Assembly (NCBI GenBank): GCA_030147525.1 | Contig: JASBVF010000056.1 | Location: forward strand, 62,001-126,000 | Length of the DNA: 64,000 nucleotides | From: Bacteroidota bacterium | GTDB lineage: Bacteria; Bacteroidota; Bacteroidia; Chitinophagales; Saprospiraceae | Direction: 5' to 3' | Part shown: positions 9,049 to 17,189 of the stretch, one piece after another | Layout: every line of letters starts with the position of its first letter | How positions within the stretch are numbered: the first letter of the stretch is position 1 | The notes under the pieces: model-generated | What the model was told of the DNA's origin: nothing | The model's database searches: none | What the model saw: only the letters and a program-made list of their open reading frames with translations | Program-made: the position numbers and the translations under genes

Positions 9049-9789
9049 TTAATTAAACACCCCGTGCAGCAACTCCGTCTCCAGTTTGATTGCCTTCGGA
9101 AACAGCAGGTTGTTCTCGAGGTGGATGTGCCGGTGCAGATCCATCTCGAACTCTCTCAACTCATTGAAGCTCAGCTGGTAAGACGTGCATGCATCGAGGG
9201 GTGGCGTATAGTTGTTGCTCAGCTCCCGGATTTCTTTCATCAACTCGCCTGCCCGGTCGTGTTCCAGTTCCATCACCTCAATCGGGCTGGAAATGAAAGG
9301 TTGCCGGGGCATGAGTACCTCGTTCGCCGTGCGATAAGCCGCAACCAGCCGTTTCACATAAGGGAAAAGAATGTTTTCCTCTTTGAACATGTGGTGGGTT
9401 AGTTCACCGGCAAGTTCATGCCACAGCTCAGCGATTTTTACCAGGTTCGGATACTTTTCTCCGTGCTTGTCCGCCACTTTCTGGGTGTGTGCCAGCATAA
9501 CGGGAACCATCTCCCGGACGTAGCTGTGGTGCTTGAACATGATGTAATCCGCTAGCTTGTCCAGAGACATATTCTGAAAGTCTTCACCAATGAATTTGGT
9601 GTTTTTCCGGAAAATAACTTCCAGTTTTTCAGTCACCTCGTCAACGTTGAGGCCCTGACTTTTGCAGGCATCTTCGAGGGTGCGTTTACCATTGCAGCAA
9701 AAGTCAAGCTGGTATTTTTCAAAAATAACAGCTGCCCCGGATTGCTGCGTCACCAGTTCTGCCAATGTGATTTCACGAAGATTTTTCAT
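9049..9789 (-). CDS. ric: Iron-sulfur cluster repair di-iron protein (Ric/YtfE/ScdA type)
   Basis: The 246-aa protein is read from ATG 9789; the frame reaches a TTG at 9795 that I reject as start. Residues about 3-55 form the ScdA N-terminal domain with the family's CC motif (YQLDFCCNGKRTLEDAC). A hemerythrin-like HHE region follows, with conserved His and Glu spread over MFKHHSYVREMVPVML, ELTHHMFKEENILFPYVKR, MELEHDRAGELM and LHRHIHLENNLLFPKA. Ric proteins release iron to repair Fe-S clusters damaged by nitric oxide or peroxide in the cytoplasm. The neighbouring NO reductase and Rrf2 regulator support that role. Its leader shares an unusual hairpin arrangement with norB. Confidence 0.93.
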   Translation of the reverse strand: MKNLREITLAELVTQQSGAAVIFEKYQLDFCCNGKRTLEDACKSQGLNVDEVTEKLEVIFRKNTKFIGEDFQNMSLDKLADYIMFKHHSYVREMVPVMLAHTQKVADKHGEKYPNLVKIAELWHELAGELTHHMFKEENILFPYVKRLVAAYRTANEVLMPRQPFISSPIEVMELEHDRAGELMKEIRELSNNYTPPLDACTSYQLSFNELREFEMDLHRHIHLENNLLFPKAIKLETELLHGVFN

Positions 9790-9801
9790 GATCAAAAAAG
9801 T

Positions 9802-9929: not shown

Positions 9930-11843
9930 TTATTGTTTGACAAATCGTTTCTGCCCGACCCTTCCGTCTGATTGAATAGTCAAAATGTACAACCCGGAAG
10001 TGCATTCAGCAGGCAGGGTCAAAGTCAGTGTGTTGTTGCCATCGGACAGCAAAGCATCCCGTTGGAGCAGGATCCGGCCCTGCAAGTCAGCGATCCGGAT
10101 GACGGCCTCCTGGCGGCTCGTTGCGGGTATCCGCAGGAAAATCATTTCCCGTGCGGGGTTCGGGTAGAGCGCCAGCTCGATCTCACCTGCCTTGCCGGTT
10201 TCCTGTGTGCCAGTGAGGAACGATTTTGCTTTGAAAATGTCATCCTGAACGATGGTCACCGGCGTATTCCGGCGAATGACATCAGCCAGTCTTGTGTTTT
10301 TGATGAATTGTATTTCTTGCGGTGAAATACCGGGATCAGCTTCGTAGTAAAAGCGGTCGCCATCCCGCAGCGCCATGAATTGCTGTTCGATGATGGTCAT
10401 GGCCGTTTTACCAAAAAGGGCATCCGGCATGTGATTTTCAGACAGCATACCCACCCAGGGATCAATTTTATTGATGTCGCCGTACACGAATTCCATGGTC
10501 AGGTTCATGAGCGGATCGGAAGACATTTCCGTGAAACTGGTCAGTGGATCCAGTCCAAATTCCGTACGAATCGTGTTGTAATCCGGTAAGCCCCGCTCCC
10601 GTCCCCGCTCGATGTTGATGGCGGCCAGGTCCATGCCACCGGCGCCGGGTGCGCCGAAGAGGAAATTCCGGAGATCGTCCACCAGTTTACAATCAAAATC
10701 CTGCTGCACAACGGTTGCCATGCCGATGAGGTAAGGCTCGATGCCGCCGACCGCCATGGTTGCGTTCGGGTTGAAAAAAGCATCCCGCAGCAGGATGTCG
10801 CCTTCCGGCAGGTATTCGCCGTCATTGTCCATGCGTACCAGCAGGCTGTTGATGGTGGTGTGTCCGTAGCGATAGGCTGCGGCAGAAAAAACGTTCAAAA
10901 TACCTGCATTTTCAGCAACGTCGTAACCGCTGTACGGAGGCACGTGCATGCCCATGGCCGGCAGCCATTCTTCGTAAACGATGGCCTGCATTTGTCCGCC
11001 CACCAGCTTGCGGGCGTGCTGGTAAAGCTCCTCATCCGTCCAGCCGGGATTGCTGACTTTGAGCACATCGCAAAGGCGGTTGTGCTCCCGCACAAACAGC
11101 GTGTGCATGGCCGTCAGAAACGGATTTTCATTCGCCCTGACATCGCCCGCCACGAACCATTTTTGAACGAAAGGCATTGGCATGGCCATTCCGGGCGCCG
11201 TTGGGTCAATCGCCCCGTCTTCCTCGCCGGTAACCGTATTCCACGGAAGCAGGTTGCCTGCTGACACCCTTAGTTTTCCGTCGGAAAAAGTGCGCAGCCA
11301 GGCAGCCCGTTCCTCATCGGAGCCGTACACTGCAGATGCATCGATGTAGGCACTGATGGAGTTTACAAACATGCGTGGATTAGAGACTGAAGTACCGGTC
11401 GTTGGATCATAATCTGAGCGTTTCATAGGAATTCCGACCAAACCGGTGCCTGCCGGATCGAAGAAAACATCGCCGGCGGGAATAGGAATGGTCAGACCTT
11501 CGGAGGGATGATCTTCCACAAGCGTGATATCGTGGTCGATGAATTGACCCCAGGCCCAACAGTAAGAACTGAGACTCCGGGGGTCGTTCGCCAGCGTGTT
11601 TTGCATGAAAAGCGAATTGCTGATGAACCGAGGGTTCGGACGGTCAGCTCCGGCAGGTTCAGAGATGCCATCGGCATAACCGAAAGCTCCAGGGTTGAGC
11701 TGGTTTACGCCTGCTGAACCCCAGCTTTTGTTTACCAGGTTGTTGTTGTAGCCGTCCAACGTGCGATTACTTTGGGTAAAAACGCCTCCGGCAACCAACA
11801 TCGCCAGTGCTGTTGTGAACATGAATTTTGTAAAATTTTTCAT
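9930..11843 (-). CDS. Secreted animal-type heme peroxidase with T9SS sorting tail
   Basis: The 637-aa product has a signal peptide (to about residue 23, VAGGVFTQ). The animal heme peroxidase domain covers about residues 30-530, with the distal motif WGQFIDHDIT (His ligand side and Ca-binding Asp), an ETNPF-like ANENPFLTAMHTLFVREHNR helix and the proximal-His region AAYRYGHTTINS. Residues about 555-637 are a type A T9SS sorting domain (ALYPNPAREMIFLRI, ending VGQKRFVKQ). It should act outside the cell, oxidising small substrates or halides with peroxide. Its location between ric and norB ties it to nitrosative or oxidative stress, but the substrate cannot be read from the sequence. Confidence 0.92.
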   Translation of the reverse strand: MKNFTKFMFTTALAMLVAGGVFTQSNRTLDGYNNNLVNKSWGSAGVNQLNPGAFGYADGISEPAGADRPNPRFISNSLFMQNTLANDPRSLSSYCWAWGQFIDHDITLVEDHPSEGLTIPIPAGDVFFDPAGTGLVGIPMKRSDYDPTTGTSVSNPRMFVNSISAYIDASAVYGSDEERAAWLRTFSDGKLRVSAGNLLPWNTVTGEEDGAIDPTAPGMAMPMPFVQKWFVAGDVRANENPFLTAMHTLFVREHNRLCDVLKVSNPGWTDEELYQHARKLVGGQMQAIVYEEWLPAMGMHVPPYSGYDVAENAGILNVFSAAAYRYGHTTINSLLVRMDNDGEYLPEGDILLRDAFFNPNATMAVGGIEPYLIGMATVVQQDFDCKLVDDLRNFLFGAPGAGGMDLAAINIERGRERGLPDYNTIRTEFGLDPLTSFTEMSSDPLMNLTMEFVYGDINKIDPWVGMLSENHMPDALFGKTAMTIIEQQFMALRDGDRFYYEADPGISPQEIQFIKNTRLADVIRRNTPVTIVQDDIFKAKSFLTGTQETGKAGEIELALYPNPAREMIFLRIPATSRQEAVIRIADLQGRILLQRDALLSDGNNTLTLTLPAECTSGLYILTIQSDGRVGQKRFVKQ

Positions 11844-14355: not shown

Positions 14356-14379
14356 ATCCAAAGTGATGGGAAAATAATT

Positions 14380-14395
14380 AAGAGTTTTTTGTCTT
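14380..14395. promoter_or_regulatory. Candidate Rrf2 operator upstream of norB
   Basis: AAGAGTTTTTTGTCTT is an imperfect 16-bp palindrome that aligns with AAGACAAACTTGTCCC at 14895-14910 and AGGACTATTTTGTCTC at 17022-17037. Shared positions give a consensus near ARGACWAWTTTGTCTY. It lies about 80 nt upstream of the norB start. Confidence 0.6.
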
Positions 14396-14400
14396 AAATA

Positions 14401-14422
14401 GGGGCAAAAAATTTTGACCCCC
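14401..14422. terminator. Candidate terminator after the Rrf2 gene
   Basis: An imperfect palindrome built from GGGGGTCAAAA and TTTTTTGCCCC sits just downstream of the Rrf2 stop and upstream of the norB operator. The stem is GC at the base and AT in the middle, so it may equally be a regulatory site. Confidence 0.4.
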
Positions 14423-14438
14423 TTCGGCCATCACTTTT

Positions 14439-14876
14439 TTACCCGCTCAAACGCAGTCGGTTTTCGCTGATTTTCGTTCCCAGTTCTGCCAGCGAAGTGG
14501 TCGCAAATTCATCTTGCAGCGCAGCTTTGGTTACCTTCCAGAAATCATGCACCGGGCATGGTTCAAACTCTCCGCAGCCGGGCAGACCCAGCAGGCAGGA
14601 ATCGAAAAAATTTTCTCCCTCGAGGATTTTCACCACGTCGATCAGGAAGATTTCTTCCGCCGGTAATTTCAGGGCGATCCCGCCGTTGGGGCCCCGGTAA
14701 GACTCCAGCAGACCACGCTGTGTGAGTGATTGCAGAATTTTGGTTAAGAAATGGAAAGAAATACTCAGTTCTTCCGACATCTCCCGAATGCTCACGTATT
14801 CACTTTTATCTTTTTTGGAAACGATATACAACAACGCCCTTAACCCGTAAACACTGGCTTTCGATAATACCTTCAC
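14439..14876 (-). CDS. Rrf2 family regulator, NsrR/IscR-like with three Cys
   Basis: The 145-aa product is read from GTG 14876 (MKVLSKASVYGLRALLYI); a TTG at 14912 would place the start before the predicted transcription start. The winged helix occupies residues about 1-65 (SIREMSEELSISFHFLTKIL, then GLLESYRGPNGGIAL). Three Cys at about 94, 101 and 107 (SCLLGLPGCGEFEPCPVH) match the Fe-S-binding region of NsrR and IscR, with one extra residue in the first spacing. Position beside norB and ric suggests an NO sensor. A palindrome overlaps its own transcription start, implying autorepression. Binding of NO or a cluster is inferred, not shown. Confidence 0.88.
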   Translation of the reverse strand: MKVLSKASVYGLRALLYIVSKKDKSEYVSIREMSEELSISFHFLTKILQSLTQRGLLESYRGPNGGIALKLPAEEIFLIDVVKILEGENFFDSCLLGLPGCGEFEPCPVHDFWKVTKAALQDEFATTSLAELGTKISENRLRLSG

Positions 14877-14894
14877 TTTGGATTTTTTATATTT

Positions 14895-14941
14895 AAGACA
14901 AACTTGTCCCAAAATAACGCCAAATATTTTTTTCTTCCAAA
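14895..14941 (-). promoter_or_regulatory. Promoter and operator of the Rrf2 gene
   Basis: Reading on the minus strand, TTTG (14941-14938), 20 nt, then TTATTTTG (14917-14910) form a Bacteroidota promoter with a 7/8 match to the -7 consensus. The palindrome AAGACAAACTTGTCCC (14895-14910) begins at the -7 element and covers the expected start near 14903, a classic repressor position. The same block recurs at 17022-17067. Confidence 0.75.
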
Positions 14942-14975
14942 TGAAGTAAAGTTTTTTTTGAAATCCGGCGTCATT

Positions 14976-16793
14976 TCAATGCCCCGCTGCCACAAGGTTT
15001 TCTTCTTCGATGAATTGTAATTGGTCCAATTCTTCGCCCAATCGTTCCAACTCATCCACAAAACTGTCAGGACCATCCCCCAACTTCGTTTTCATTGACG
15101 CAGCCAATTCTTTGTAGTACGCTACCCCATCCTTCAGGTTGTCCTGATATTTTGTCAAAAACTTCAAATCCTTGCCAGTGGCAGGCACCCCGATTTCTGT
15201 CATTTTTTCTTTCAGAAAATCAATGTTGAGCCTCAGTTCTTTGATGAAAAGATTTGGCCGTCCACTCCTTTTTATCAGGTTGATTTTACCGTAAATATGA
15301 TCCGTCATTTCCTGCAGGGAAACGATCGTCGAGAAGTGCGAAAGATTTGGTCCCGGACAAACGGAAACTCCCGTTCCTTCCACTTTCGTGTCCAGGTTGT
15401 TGACCAGCAAAGCTGAAGTACCCAGGCCCACGCAGATGCAGGTTTTGTCTACAATCCTGGCAAAGGCTTTTGCGTACGAATCTTCGTCTAAGCCCTTGGT
15501 TTTCAATTCTTTAATTTTCAAATACTGGTACTCCCGTGAGGCCGTGCAAATACCTTCTTCCGAAAACTCGGCACTCAACGCCAGGTACTTTTTGGGGCAG
15601 GAACTGCCGGGTCTTCCCTTACTGATGAATTGCTGTTTTTCAAGCTCCTTGGTATTTCTCCGGATGGAATTGAAGCGCACGCCCAGCGGTGAAATATCGC
15701 TGAGGTACAGGTCTTCCTCCGTTGCATCTTTCAGTAATTCGAGCGTTTCAGCATCCACGTTGGTTACCTCCGGCACGAGCAGGAAAGGAGTTCCCCAGCC
15801 GACAGAATCGAGTTGGTAATGATTCAGCAAAAACCGGTGCTCAGCTGCCGTACCAACGCCACCCTGCGCCGTAATTTTCATTTCCGGAGGAGCCTGGGGA
15901 GCGGGTAGATCCCTGCCCTTGAGCGCTTCGGTGTAAAGTTCGAAGGTTGCCTCGATCAGCGACGCACGGTTGTTTTTGAACTCTTCCAAAATCGGCCCCA
16001 GCAAAAAACCGTCAGCCGGAAAGGCATGGCCGCCACAGTTCAATCCTGACTCAATCCGGTATTCCGAAACCCACAGTCCTTTTTTCGCCAGAAATTTCCC
16101 CTGGATGAGAGCCGACCGGTAGTCGCTCACTTTCAGCGTGATTTTCTTTTTGAAAACGCCGTTTTCATCCGGATAAAAATCAGCGAACGTTTCCAGATAG
16201 CCGTACAGCCTCGGATTCATCCCTGCGGAAAGGATGACCGACGACTCGAGCATACTTTCCGCAAAACCCCGCAGGGCGGCGTGCGCATCGTTGAATTCCG
16301 TGGGCAGGGCCTCGTGATTGCGAAAATTAACCTTATCAACTTTGGTCATCACGTTCACGTCAATCGATCCCGGTGTCAGGTTTTTCTCCACCCACTGCCG
16401 GGTAAGCTGTTCATCCCTTGCTTCGGCGATCAGAAGGAATTTTTGCTTGAATTTTGACGAATCCGGCAGCAAATTCAGGTATTTTCGGAATGGACCGTCC
16501 TGCTCGAATACCGACTTTTTCACCTCCTCAATTTTAGTCTTCACCAAGCTGTCCATCAGGTTCAGGTAGGCAGTAATCCGCCGGGCCCTGAAGTCTTCCA
16601 TCTTGTTTGAAATGGCCTGAAAAGGCAACTCAAACTTTTTGCAATAAAATGCCCGCATTTTTTCCATCAGCCCGTCATCGACCAGCGAAATGGCCGAAGC
16701 AATGCCGAATGGGGCAACTTTCAACGGTGTATCAATCGTAAAACCGATGCCCATGACAGGTATGTGAAAATCGTGCTCTTGGTTAAATTTCAT
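14976..16793 (-). CDS. 605-aa TIM-barrel-like protein with five conserved-looking Cys, function unknown
   Basis: I do not recognise a named family. The N-terminus MGIGFTIDTPLKVAPFGIASAISLVDDGL resembles flavin-dependent TIM-barrel enzymes. GLNCGGHAFP (about 250-259) and ITAQGGVGTAAEH (about 307-319) recall the GGH and GG(I/V)G phosphate-binding motifs of nitronate monooxygenase or PfaD-like proteins. The C-terminal half carries Cys at about 399 (GSSCPKKY), 416 (GICTAS), 452 and 454 (KTCICVGLG) and 479 (SVCPGPN), which could hold an Fe-S cluster. No signal peptide or membrane segment is seen, so it is cytoplasmic. Its promoter is nearly a copy of the Rrf2 gene promoter including the operator, which places it in the NO regulon. 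Flavin and cluster binding are inference. Confidence 0.75.
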   Translation of the reverse strand: MKFNQEHDFHIPVMGIGFTIDTPLKVAPFGIASAISLVDDGLMEKMRAFYCKKFELPFQAISNKMEDFRARRITAYLNLMDSLVKTKIEEVKKSVFEQDGPFRKYLNLLPDSSKFKQKFLLIAEARDEQLTRQWVEKNLTPGSIDVNVMTKVDKVNFRNHEALPTEFNDAHAALRGFAESMLESSVILSAGMNPRLYGYLETFADFYPDENGVFKKKITLKVSDYRSALIQGKFLAKKGLWVSEYRIESGLNCGGHAFPADGFLLGPILEEFKNNRASLIEATFELYTEALKGRDLPAPQAPPEMKITAQGGVGTAAEHRFLLNHYQLDSVGWGTPFLLVPEVTNVDAETLELLKDATEEDLYLSDISPLGVRFNSIRRNTKELEKQQFISKGRPGSSCPKKYLALSAEFSEEGICTASREYQYLKIKELKTKGLDEDSYAKAFARIVDKTCICVGLGTSALLVNNLDTKVEGTGVSVCPGPNLSHFSTIVSLQEMTDHIYGKINLIKRSGRPNLFIKELRLNIDFLKEKMTEIGVPATGKDLKFLTKYQDNLKDGVAYYKELAASMKTKLGDGPDSFVDELERLGEELDQLQFIEEENLVAAGH

Positions 16794-17189
16794 CTTTGCT
16801 CAGATTTGCCCAGGCGCTTGTAAACCGGCAATCATGCCTCCCGACTTTGCTGACGGGTGCATGCCATGCCTGGTTCCAGGTTGAGTAGCGGAACCCATTT
16901 GATCAAAAAAAATGAAGGAAAATGTTCAGCTCGTCTGACATTTTCCGGATTCCGAAAGAGCGGCTTGCCTTACCCAAAAAACTAACCTGTAGTCGTACAC
17001 GCACGCTGGAATTTTATATTTAGGACTATTTTGTCTCAAAATAACGCCAAATAATTTTCCCGGCCAAGGGAAGCCGGAAGTTTTTAATTTTTTGATCGAA
17101 ATCGAATGCTGTTTTTTCCCTTGGTTTCCGCTTCGTAGCTTTGTCCAAGCCTCTGAATCCGCCATTTTTCTCACCAAAATTTTATTAAA
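16794..17189. promoter_or_regulatory. Divergent intergenic region with long leader of the 605-aa gene
   Basis: No gene is seen in these 396 nt. They contain the operator-promoter at 17022-17067, a leader hairpin with a 9-bp stem (16917-16925 with 16938-16946, 12-nt loop), a TTTGATCAAA palindrome near 16900 and, for the rightward gene, TAGCTTTG at 17136-17143, a perfect TANNTTTG element. The leader of the 605-aa mRNA would be about 235 nt, unusually long. Confidence 0.5.
17022..17067 (-). promoter_or_regulatory. Promoter and Rrf2-type operator of the 605-aa gene
   Basis: On the minus strand TTG (17067-17065), 20 nt, TTATTTTG (17044-17037), then palindrome AGGACTATTTTGTCTC (17022-17037). The block from TTTGGCGTTATTTTG through TAAATATAAAA is nearly identical to the one in front of the Rrf2 gene and has the same orientation relative to its gene. 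Confidence 0.72.

Follow-up and report, generated by a model that had tools for sequence, protein, structure and literature searches.

Our results point to a regulon of an Rrf2-family protein, here called Rrf2A, in a bacterium of the Saprospiraceae (phylum Bacteroidota; assembly GCA_030147525.1). The window, by which we mean the whole stretch of DNA analysed, comprises 64,000 nucleotides of contig JASBVF010000056.1 (positions 62,001 to 126,000) and contains three 16-bp palindromes with rrf2A between them. We put the probability at about 0.8 that these palindromes are operators of Rrf2A and that Rrf2A works as a repressor relieved by nitric oxide (NO). The genes concerned lie on the minus strand in the order 605-aa gene, rrf2A, norB, animal-type haem peroxidase gene, ric. 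The peroxidase gene is a member of the cluster that the initial annotation of this DNA lacked. In relatives the same operator occurs together with Rrf2A before denitrification genes. Hence, it is probably part of the response of these bacteria to nitrogen oxides.

Three palindromes in the window

The three palindromes are real and lie far above chance. Reading the letters of the window directly finds all three where the initial annotation had placed them, including the one upstream of norB at 14380-14395 (Table 1). The consensus that it had drawn from them did not hold up: at up to three mismatches it matches the window 7 times against 6.2 expected, which is no excess over chance. We therefore replaced it with matrices trained on relatives. 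A 20-bp matrix, built from the rrf2-upstream sites of 11 relatives and from none of the studied genome, ranks the sites of rrf2A (25.8 bits), the 605-aa gene (24.5 bits) and norB (19.7 bits) first to third in the window, and the next unrelated place reaches 9.6 bits. With a symmetric 22-bp matrix the three sites score as given in Table 1 and the next place scores 12.2 bits. When the window was shuffled 200 times with dinucleotides preserved, the highest score was 20.3 bits, so that none of the 200 reached the weakest site (23.1 bits). The rrf2A site is an orthologue of those used for training, and the sites at norB and 605 lie at places independent of them. Matrix ranks and shuffles thus support one operator common to the three genes, with the consensus TTTARGAC-N6-GTCTTAAA.

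One could argue that the resemblance of the palindromes is accidental, their setting being AT-rich promoters, and the chance-level performance of the earlier degenerate consensus would fit this view. We find it scarcely credible in light of the first three ranks of a matrix from which the studied genome was held out, the shuffles, and the co-occurrence with nosZ and with distant homologues described below. A bare pattern, RRGAC-N6-GTCYY, was also searched in the whole genome and set aside as uninformative (38 places, against 147 for the reversed control pattern).

Conservation places the start of rrf2A at GTG 14876, and the operator therefore lies upstream of the gene, not within it. Two of the sites come with a promoter-like element, TTG-N20-TTATTTTG, that had been described as duplicated before rrf2A and the 605-aa gene. 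It is indeed present at both; the two promoter segments agree in 51 of 78 bases, with a longest identical run of 17 bases. No such element accompanies the norB site. The operator starts within the -7-like part of the promoter. In three relatives TAGTTTTG stands at the position of the rrf2A promoter. It matches TAnnTTTG, the sigma-A -7 box of flavobacteria (PMC9723704).

Operator and rrf2A in related genomes

A search of 148 genomes found rrf2A at 57–74% identity in 13 genomes other than the studied one (G000). The operator lies at the same place upstream of 12 of these 13 close orthologues. Eleven of the 12 sites are the training set itself (7 fit a strict core pattern and 4 were read by eye), and the remaining one, in G014, scores 15.4 bits. 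In 12 of 14 genomes, the studied one included, the gap to the gene that follows rrf2A contains a second site (the exceptions are G011 and G060). The gene behind this second site varies: norB, a peroxidase gene (G002, G003, G005, G010 and G040) or a haloperoxidase-like gene (G014).

The annotation had proposed scanning related genomes upstream of norB, ric and 605 homologues. For norB the scan, with a matrix made from rrf2A sites only, bears the proposal out: at a threshold of 12.5 bits, chosen after the scores were seen, a site is present in 9 of 10 genomes with rrf2A (the studied one included) and in 0 of 6 without it (p = 0.005; 16 of 18 matches scored, without the second fragments from G012 and G006). 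Before the MbnP gene, sites of at least 16 bits occur in 6 of 7 genomes with rrf2A, again with the studied one, versus 1 of 15 without (p = 0.004; best 22 of 33 matches). Both p-values, like our other comparisons, are uncorrected for shared ancestry. As a separate target ric drops out, as none of the 16 loci scored (of 30) has an operator of its own; in the studied genome ric comes after norB and the peroxidase gene. Among peroxidase genes, sites of 7.5 to 22.3 bits stand before the five that come directly after rrf2A, and none before those located behind norB or elsewhere.

The association extends much further. A protein like Rrf2A (E ≤ 1e-38) is found in 55 of 395 genomes of the phylum, at 43–55% identity outside the studied genome. 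We sampled 20 of these 55, namely the top ranks and others picked for different families, and scored the 150 bp reaching the start codon; 11 of the 20 upstreams had already been inspected before scoring. Twelve of the 20 reach at least 13.5 bits; of 186 further upstreams taken from these loci, 6 do (p = 8e-10). In all 12 the 5' end of the site is 23–41 bp before the start; the site of G282 was found with the window extended to the start codon, and the best operator is TTTAAGACAAAATAGTCTTAAA in G286. Neighbours of the distant genes include nosZ, nirK, hemN or hemN-like genes, ric and 605. All four nosZ genes tested there exceed the NCBIfam cut-off, and of the nirK genes one lies over and one under it. 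In G286 a nirK over the cut-off stands behind a 29-bit site.

The link to nosZ can be counted directly. A Sec-dependent nosZ over the cut-off is found in 127 of the 395 sampled genomes, and nosZ is present in 38 of the 55 genomes with an rrf2A-like gene versus 90 of the 340 others. In 23 of the 38 genomes the two genes are at most 5 kb apart. Sites of at least 14 bits occur in the approximately 1.5 kb before nosZ in 6 of 10 genomes with rrf2A and in 0 of 26 without it, where the best score is 11.4 bits (30 best-scoring loci of 128 genomes plus 7 fetched; G321 counted once). In G175 the nosZ site is present although the rrf2A-like gene lies some 126 kb off, and this speaks for regulation in trans. 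The studied genome carries its own Sec-dependent nosZ (G000:C19:165081-168105), with a match to an Rrf2 homologue containing internal stops about 1 kb away.

Within the studied genome we used a 30-bp profile made from 29 of 31 relatives' sites (two near-duplicates left out), with the studied genome held out. Since the training sites include the MbnP site of G033, E-values for G033 and for relatives with rrf2A are partly given by construction. Seven matches at E ≤ 10 all fall at four loci: norB (2.0e-4), MbnP (C51:105835; 0.0035), rrf2A (0.020) and 605 (0.047). Four loci is a lower bound, as scoring covered 150 of the 1144 first-look candidates in this genome. The fourth operator lies directly upstream of the MbnP gene (G000:C51:105835-106611), which is followed by the gene of an MbnH-type di-haem peroxidase. 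This pair is an addition to the regulon beyond the genes of the initial annotation.

Further candidate targets come from individual relatives. In G001 a 25-bit site precedes cytc-narG, with narG truncated at the end of the segment examined, and a 22-bit site lies about 290 bp upstream of moaA. In G012 a site stands before Alginate_exp-cytc-narG-narH, of which narG and narH exceed the NCBIfam cut-offs. G014 has a 22-bit site upstream of a norCB pair, whose large subunit matches, among solved structures, only subunit B of cNor. The same genome has a 17-bit site before a vanadium-haloperoxidase-like PAP2 gene directly behind rrf2A (L125:6075-7698), the position that the haem peroxidase or norB gene takes in other genomes. 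Finally, in G012 and G003 (L244, L252) the operator separates a hemerythrin-domain gene from one for a 2-hydroxyglutaryl-CoA dehydratase D-component (HGD-D).

Several observations, besides the late choice of the norB threshold and the missing correction for ancestry, weigh against our reading. The best norB upstream of a genome lacking rrf2A (G037) falls just under that threshold at 12.0 bits. No site was found before rrf2A in G060, before norB in G011 or before MbnP in G001, and G033 (L370) has an MbnP site of 19.7 bits though no close rrf2A was found there. Of the distant upstreams, 8 of 20 stay under 13.5 bits, the rrf2A-like gene of G175 has no site (−8.2 bits), and neither has the nosZ of the studied genome (2.4 bits). 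Peroxidase genes taken as a group show no difference between genomes with and without rrf2A (p = 0.32; 24 of 30 loci). With the 30-bp profile, eight genomes that lack rrf2A and are outside the training set reach best values of 0.04 to 0.7; these overlap the 605 site, which this profile alone therefore does not set apart; under the symmetric matrix that site scores highest in the window. The training genome G002 gets no better than 0.106. The sites at narG, moaA, nirK and norCB come from one or two genomes each, HGD-D and haloperoxidase have no obvious function in NO metabolism, and a paralogue of Rrf2A has an operator with the same GAC-N6-GTC core.

Nevertheless, the nitrogen-oxide reading of the regulon is well supported. 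Of the regulon first proposed, the shared operator, its link to this Rrf2 protein and the nitrogen-oxide theme all stand; the 605 site is not conserved among homologues, and ric lacks an operator of its own. The operator follows rrf2A over long evolutionary distances and is mostly missing at the same genes in genomes without it, a co-occurrence from which binding by Rrf2A may be inferred. The theme is carried by norB and nosZ, plus nirK, narG and norCB in single genomes.

Table 1. Features of the cluster and its predicted operators (window positions)
Feature	Position	Strand	Evidence
Rrf2A operator (predicted) upstream of norB	14377..14398; core 14380-14395 = AAGAGTTTTTTGTCTT		rank 3; 23.1 bits symmetric
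Rrf2A operator (predicted, autoregulatory) upstream of rrf2A	14892..14913; core 14895-14910 = AAGACAAACTTGTCCC		rank 1; 27.3 bits symmetric
Rrf2A operator (predicted) ~230 bp upstream of 605-aa gene	17019..17040; core 17022-17037 = AGGACTATTTTGTCTC		rank 2; 29.0 bits symmetric
Promoter-like TTG-N20-TTATTTTG before rrf2A	14910..14940	minus	read directly
Promoter-like TTG-N20-TTATTTTG before 605-aa gene, near copy of rrf2A promoter	17037..17067	minus	51/78 bases identical
rrf2A, Rrf2-family regulator, 145 aa, GTG start	14439..14876	minus	Pfam Rrf2 2.7e-27
norB, quinol-type single-chain NO reductase, 795 aa	11916..14303	minus	PF22085 + COX1
Animal-type haem peroxidase with T9SS tail, behind norB	9930..11843	minus	PF03098 2.1e-140, Por_Secre_tail
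ric, iron-sulfur cluster repair di-iron protein	9049..9795	minus	TIGR03652 over cut-off
605-aa protein, predicted FabX-like barrel	14976..16793	minus	AF2 + Foldseek

The regulator, its probable signal and its paralogue

Rrf2A belongs to the Rrf2 superfamily (PF02082, 95.9 bits at a cut-off of 30; TIGR00738, 98.4 bits at a cut-off of 73.3). The columns C-X6-C-X5-C-X2-H are invariant in all 48 rows compared (14 Rrf2A, 20 distant proteins and 14 of the paralogue Rrf2B). What the analysis shows are the sites, how they are conserved and that they occur together with rrf2A; an iron-sulfur cluster in Rrf2A and repression by it are proposed. The protein would be a repressor whose cluster sits on the three Cys and one His. 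Without a signal it would occupy TTTARGAC-N6-GTCTTAAA across the -7 element and the start region and thereby block RNA polymerase at four places: rrf2A itself, norB-peroxidase-ric, the 605-aa gene and the MbnP/MbnH operon. Nitric oxide, or another nitrogen oxide, would damage the cluster and release Rrf2A, and functions for NO reduction and cluster repair as well as peroxidases would then be produced. Repression at the -7 element with relief by NO attack on the cluster is the simplest reading and borrows the logic of NsrR; that NO is the signal is suggested by the gene set.

NsrR, a nitrite- and NO-responsive repressor, is itself a member of the Rrf2 family. At the position of its Asp8, which we take to be a cluster ligand, the 14 close Rrf2A sequences have no acidic residue (V in 10, I in 3, A in 1). 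The 20 distant rows have V in 8, I in 2 and E in 6, with 4 not read, and Rrf2B has Glu in 13 of 14. We rejected the assignment of Rrf2A as NsrR: it scores 53.5 bits against an NCBIfam equivalog cut-off of 182 bits, it lacks the acid, and its operator is a different one. The NsrR operator appears as gATGyAT-N5-ATrCATc in a 2005 comparative study of nitrogen-oxide regulators (PMC1274295). That study lists norB, nirK, hcp and dnrN as predicted NsrR targets in some species (PMC1274295). A further difference from NsrR is that nosZ and peroxidases are among the predicted targets of Rrf2A. Judged by the genes before which its predicted operators lie, those of NO metabolism and denitrification, Rrf2A would be NsrR-like in function.

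An assignment as IscR was rejected as well (59.7 bits against the TIGR02010 cut-off of 207.55 bits). IscR, also of the Rrf2 family, binds its cluster by three Cys and one His in the pattern C-X5-C-X5-C-X2-H and controls the isc and suf genes. Rrf2A has the same four potential ligands, but its first Cys spacing is X6 and its gene set is that of denitrification. A third family member, the [2Fe-2S] redox sensor RsrR of Streptomyces venezuelae, resembles Rrf2A in being probably autoregulated.

It is possible, though we lean against it, that the sites are Rrf2A operators and that the protein senses oxygen, redox or iron-sulfur status instead of NO, with the denitrification genes responding as anaerobic genes. 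The C-X2-H ligand pattern is like that of IscR, and peroxidase, HGD-D and hemN-like genes adjoin operators or rrf2A. Set against this, the targets or neighbours include norB, norCB, ric, nosZ, nirK and nar, and in G014 two NO reductases of different type share one operator.

One could also ask whether Rrf2B, alone or alongside Rrf2A, binds the operator. Rrf2B shares the C-X6-C-X5-C-X2-H pattern with Rrf2A and adjoins ric. It differs in the Glu at the Asp8 position, in its operator, CGGAYAAATTTRTCCG (read in G000, G001, G002, G006, G007, G013 and G014), and in its place in the tree. There, Rrf2A and the distant proteins stand on one side of a branch with support 100/99 and Rrf2B on the other; the distant rows were picked by likeness to Rrf2A, and the tool gave a long-branch warning. 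In favour of Rrf2B binding are the common core, the MbnP site of G033, and places before rrf2B of 18.0 bits (G057) and 14.0 bits (G014) with the 20-bp matrix. We consider it improbable, as each paralogue has a distinct operator upstream, and norB beside rrf2B in four genomes without rrf2A (G015, G025, G037, G057) has no site of at least 12.5 bits, G037 being the best. In the studied genome a second ric at C28 is accompanied by Rrf2B with its own palindrome, CGGACAAATTTGTCCAATTT (L134; G000:C28:15806-17068). This second Rrf2 paralogue, beside a second ric and with a different operator, is another addition to the initial annotation.

Among the titles and abstract starts listed in our literature searches (nosZ not searched), we recognised no report of an Rrf2 regulon for nitrogen oxides in Bacteroidota, and the matches listed for animal haem peroxidase with NO included nothing relevant; among those listed for MbnH/MbnP, one title was relevant. 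On a wider proposal our confidence is evenly divided: Rrf2A may be a widespread denitrification regulator of the phylum, with its own operator and C-X6-C-X5-C-X2-H cluster site, that controls nar and nirK, NO reductases of either kind, and Sec-dependent (clade II) nosZ. It would add to the NO response three mutually unrelated sorts of peroxidase (animal-type haem, MbnH-type di-haem and vanadium haloperoxidase-like). The analysis also suggests that peroxidases are part of the response to nitrogen oxides. The nosZ enzyme removes the greenhouse gas N2O. With a defined regulator and operator, nosZ control becomes testable, and genomes can be scanned by rule.

The 605-aa gene and its leader

The 605-aa protein has no sequence match in Pfam, NCBIfam or PDB. 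It has 58 named relatives in genome contigs, mostly of Bacteroidota, and six Cys are invariant in 39 rows of the family. Its AF2 model (pLDDT 90) is predicted to have a fold like FabX and the NMO superfamily. The best Foldseek match is FabX of H. pylori (E 2.3e-12; TM 0.67 by target length, 0.43 by query length). The two would share a barrel fold, but they are only 17% identical, differ in length (605 residues versus a 363-residue chain) and show no match at the sequence level. FabX is an enzyme that carries FMN and [4Fe-4S] (PMC8626469).

The 605-aa gene had been named a member of the regulon, and its site in the window is real. It is not conserved. The operator is present in 1 of 17 homologues scored (of 24 matches; G013 is among those left out) and in 1 of 21 by pattern, in both cases that of the studied genome only; G013, which has rrf2A, has no site before its 605 homologue. 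The 58 named loci contain six places of 16–19 bits, of which two fall within the 605 gene itself; none of these loci has rrf2A, one has ric, and in seven an rrf2B-like gene lies beside 605. As the site is peculiar to the studied genome, it is better read as captured: a local duplicate of the rrf2A promoter appears to have placed 605 under Rrf2A. Gene order ties 605 to the regulon in two distant genomes, where it is part of operons with the order rrf2-ric-605 (G232) and rrf2, hemN-like, ctaA-like, ric, 605 (G392). This gives the conserved FabX-like family a first biological setting.

Alternatively, the site may do nothing for 605, the copied promoter giving only a short transcript that ends at a hairpin and T-run about 110 nt downstream. 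The leader of about 230 nt with its hairpin and T-run, and the single site among 17 homologues, would agree with this. We regard it as unlikely, considering that the fold energy of the hairpin has a z-score of only −1.2, which is not significant, that the hairpin is absent from the list of the terminator scan, and that in G232 and G392 rrf2A-like and ric genes precede 605. A terminator or attenuator in the leader is possible. Between the operator and the start of 605 (16905-17030, minus strand), the leader holds the hairpin, then the T-run, and a frame of 12 codons.

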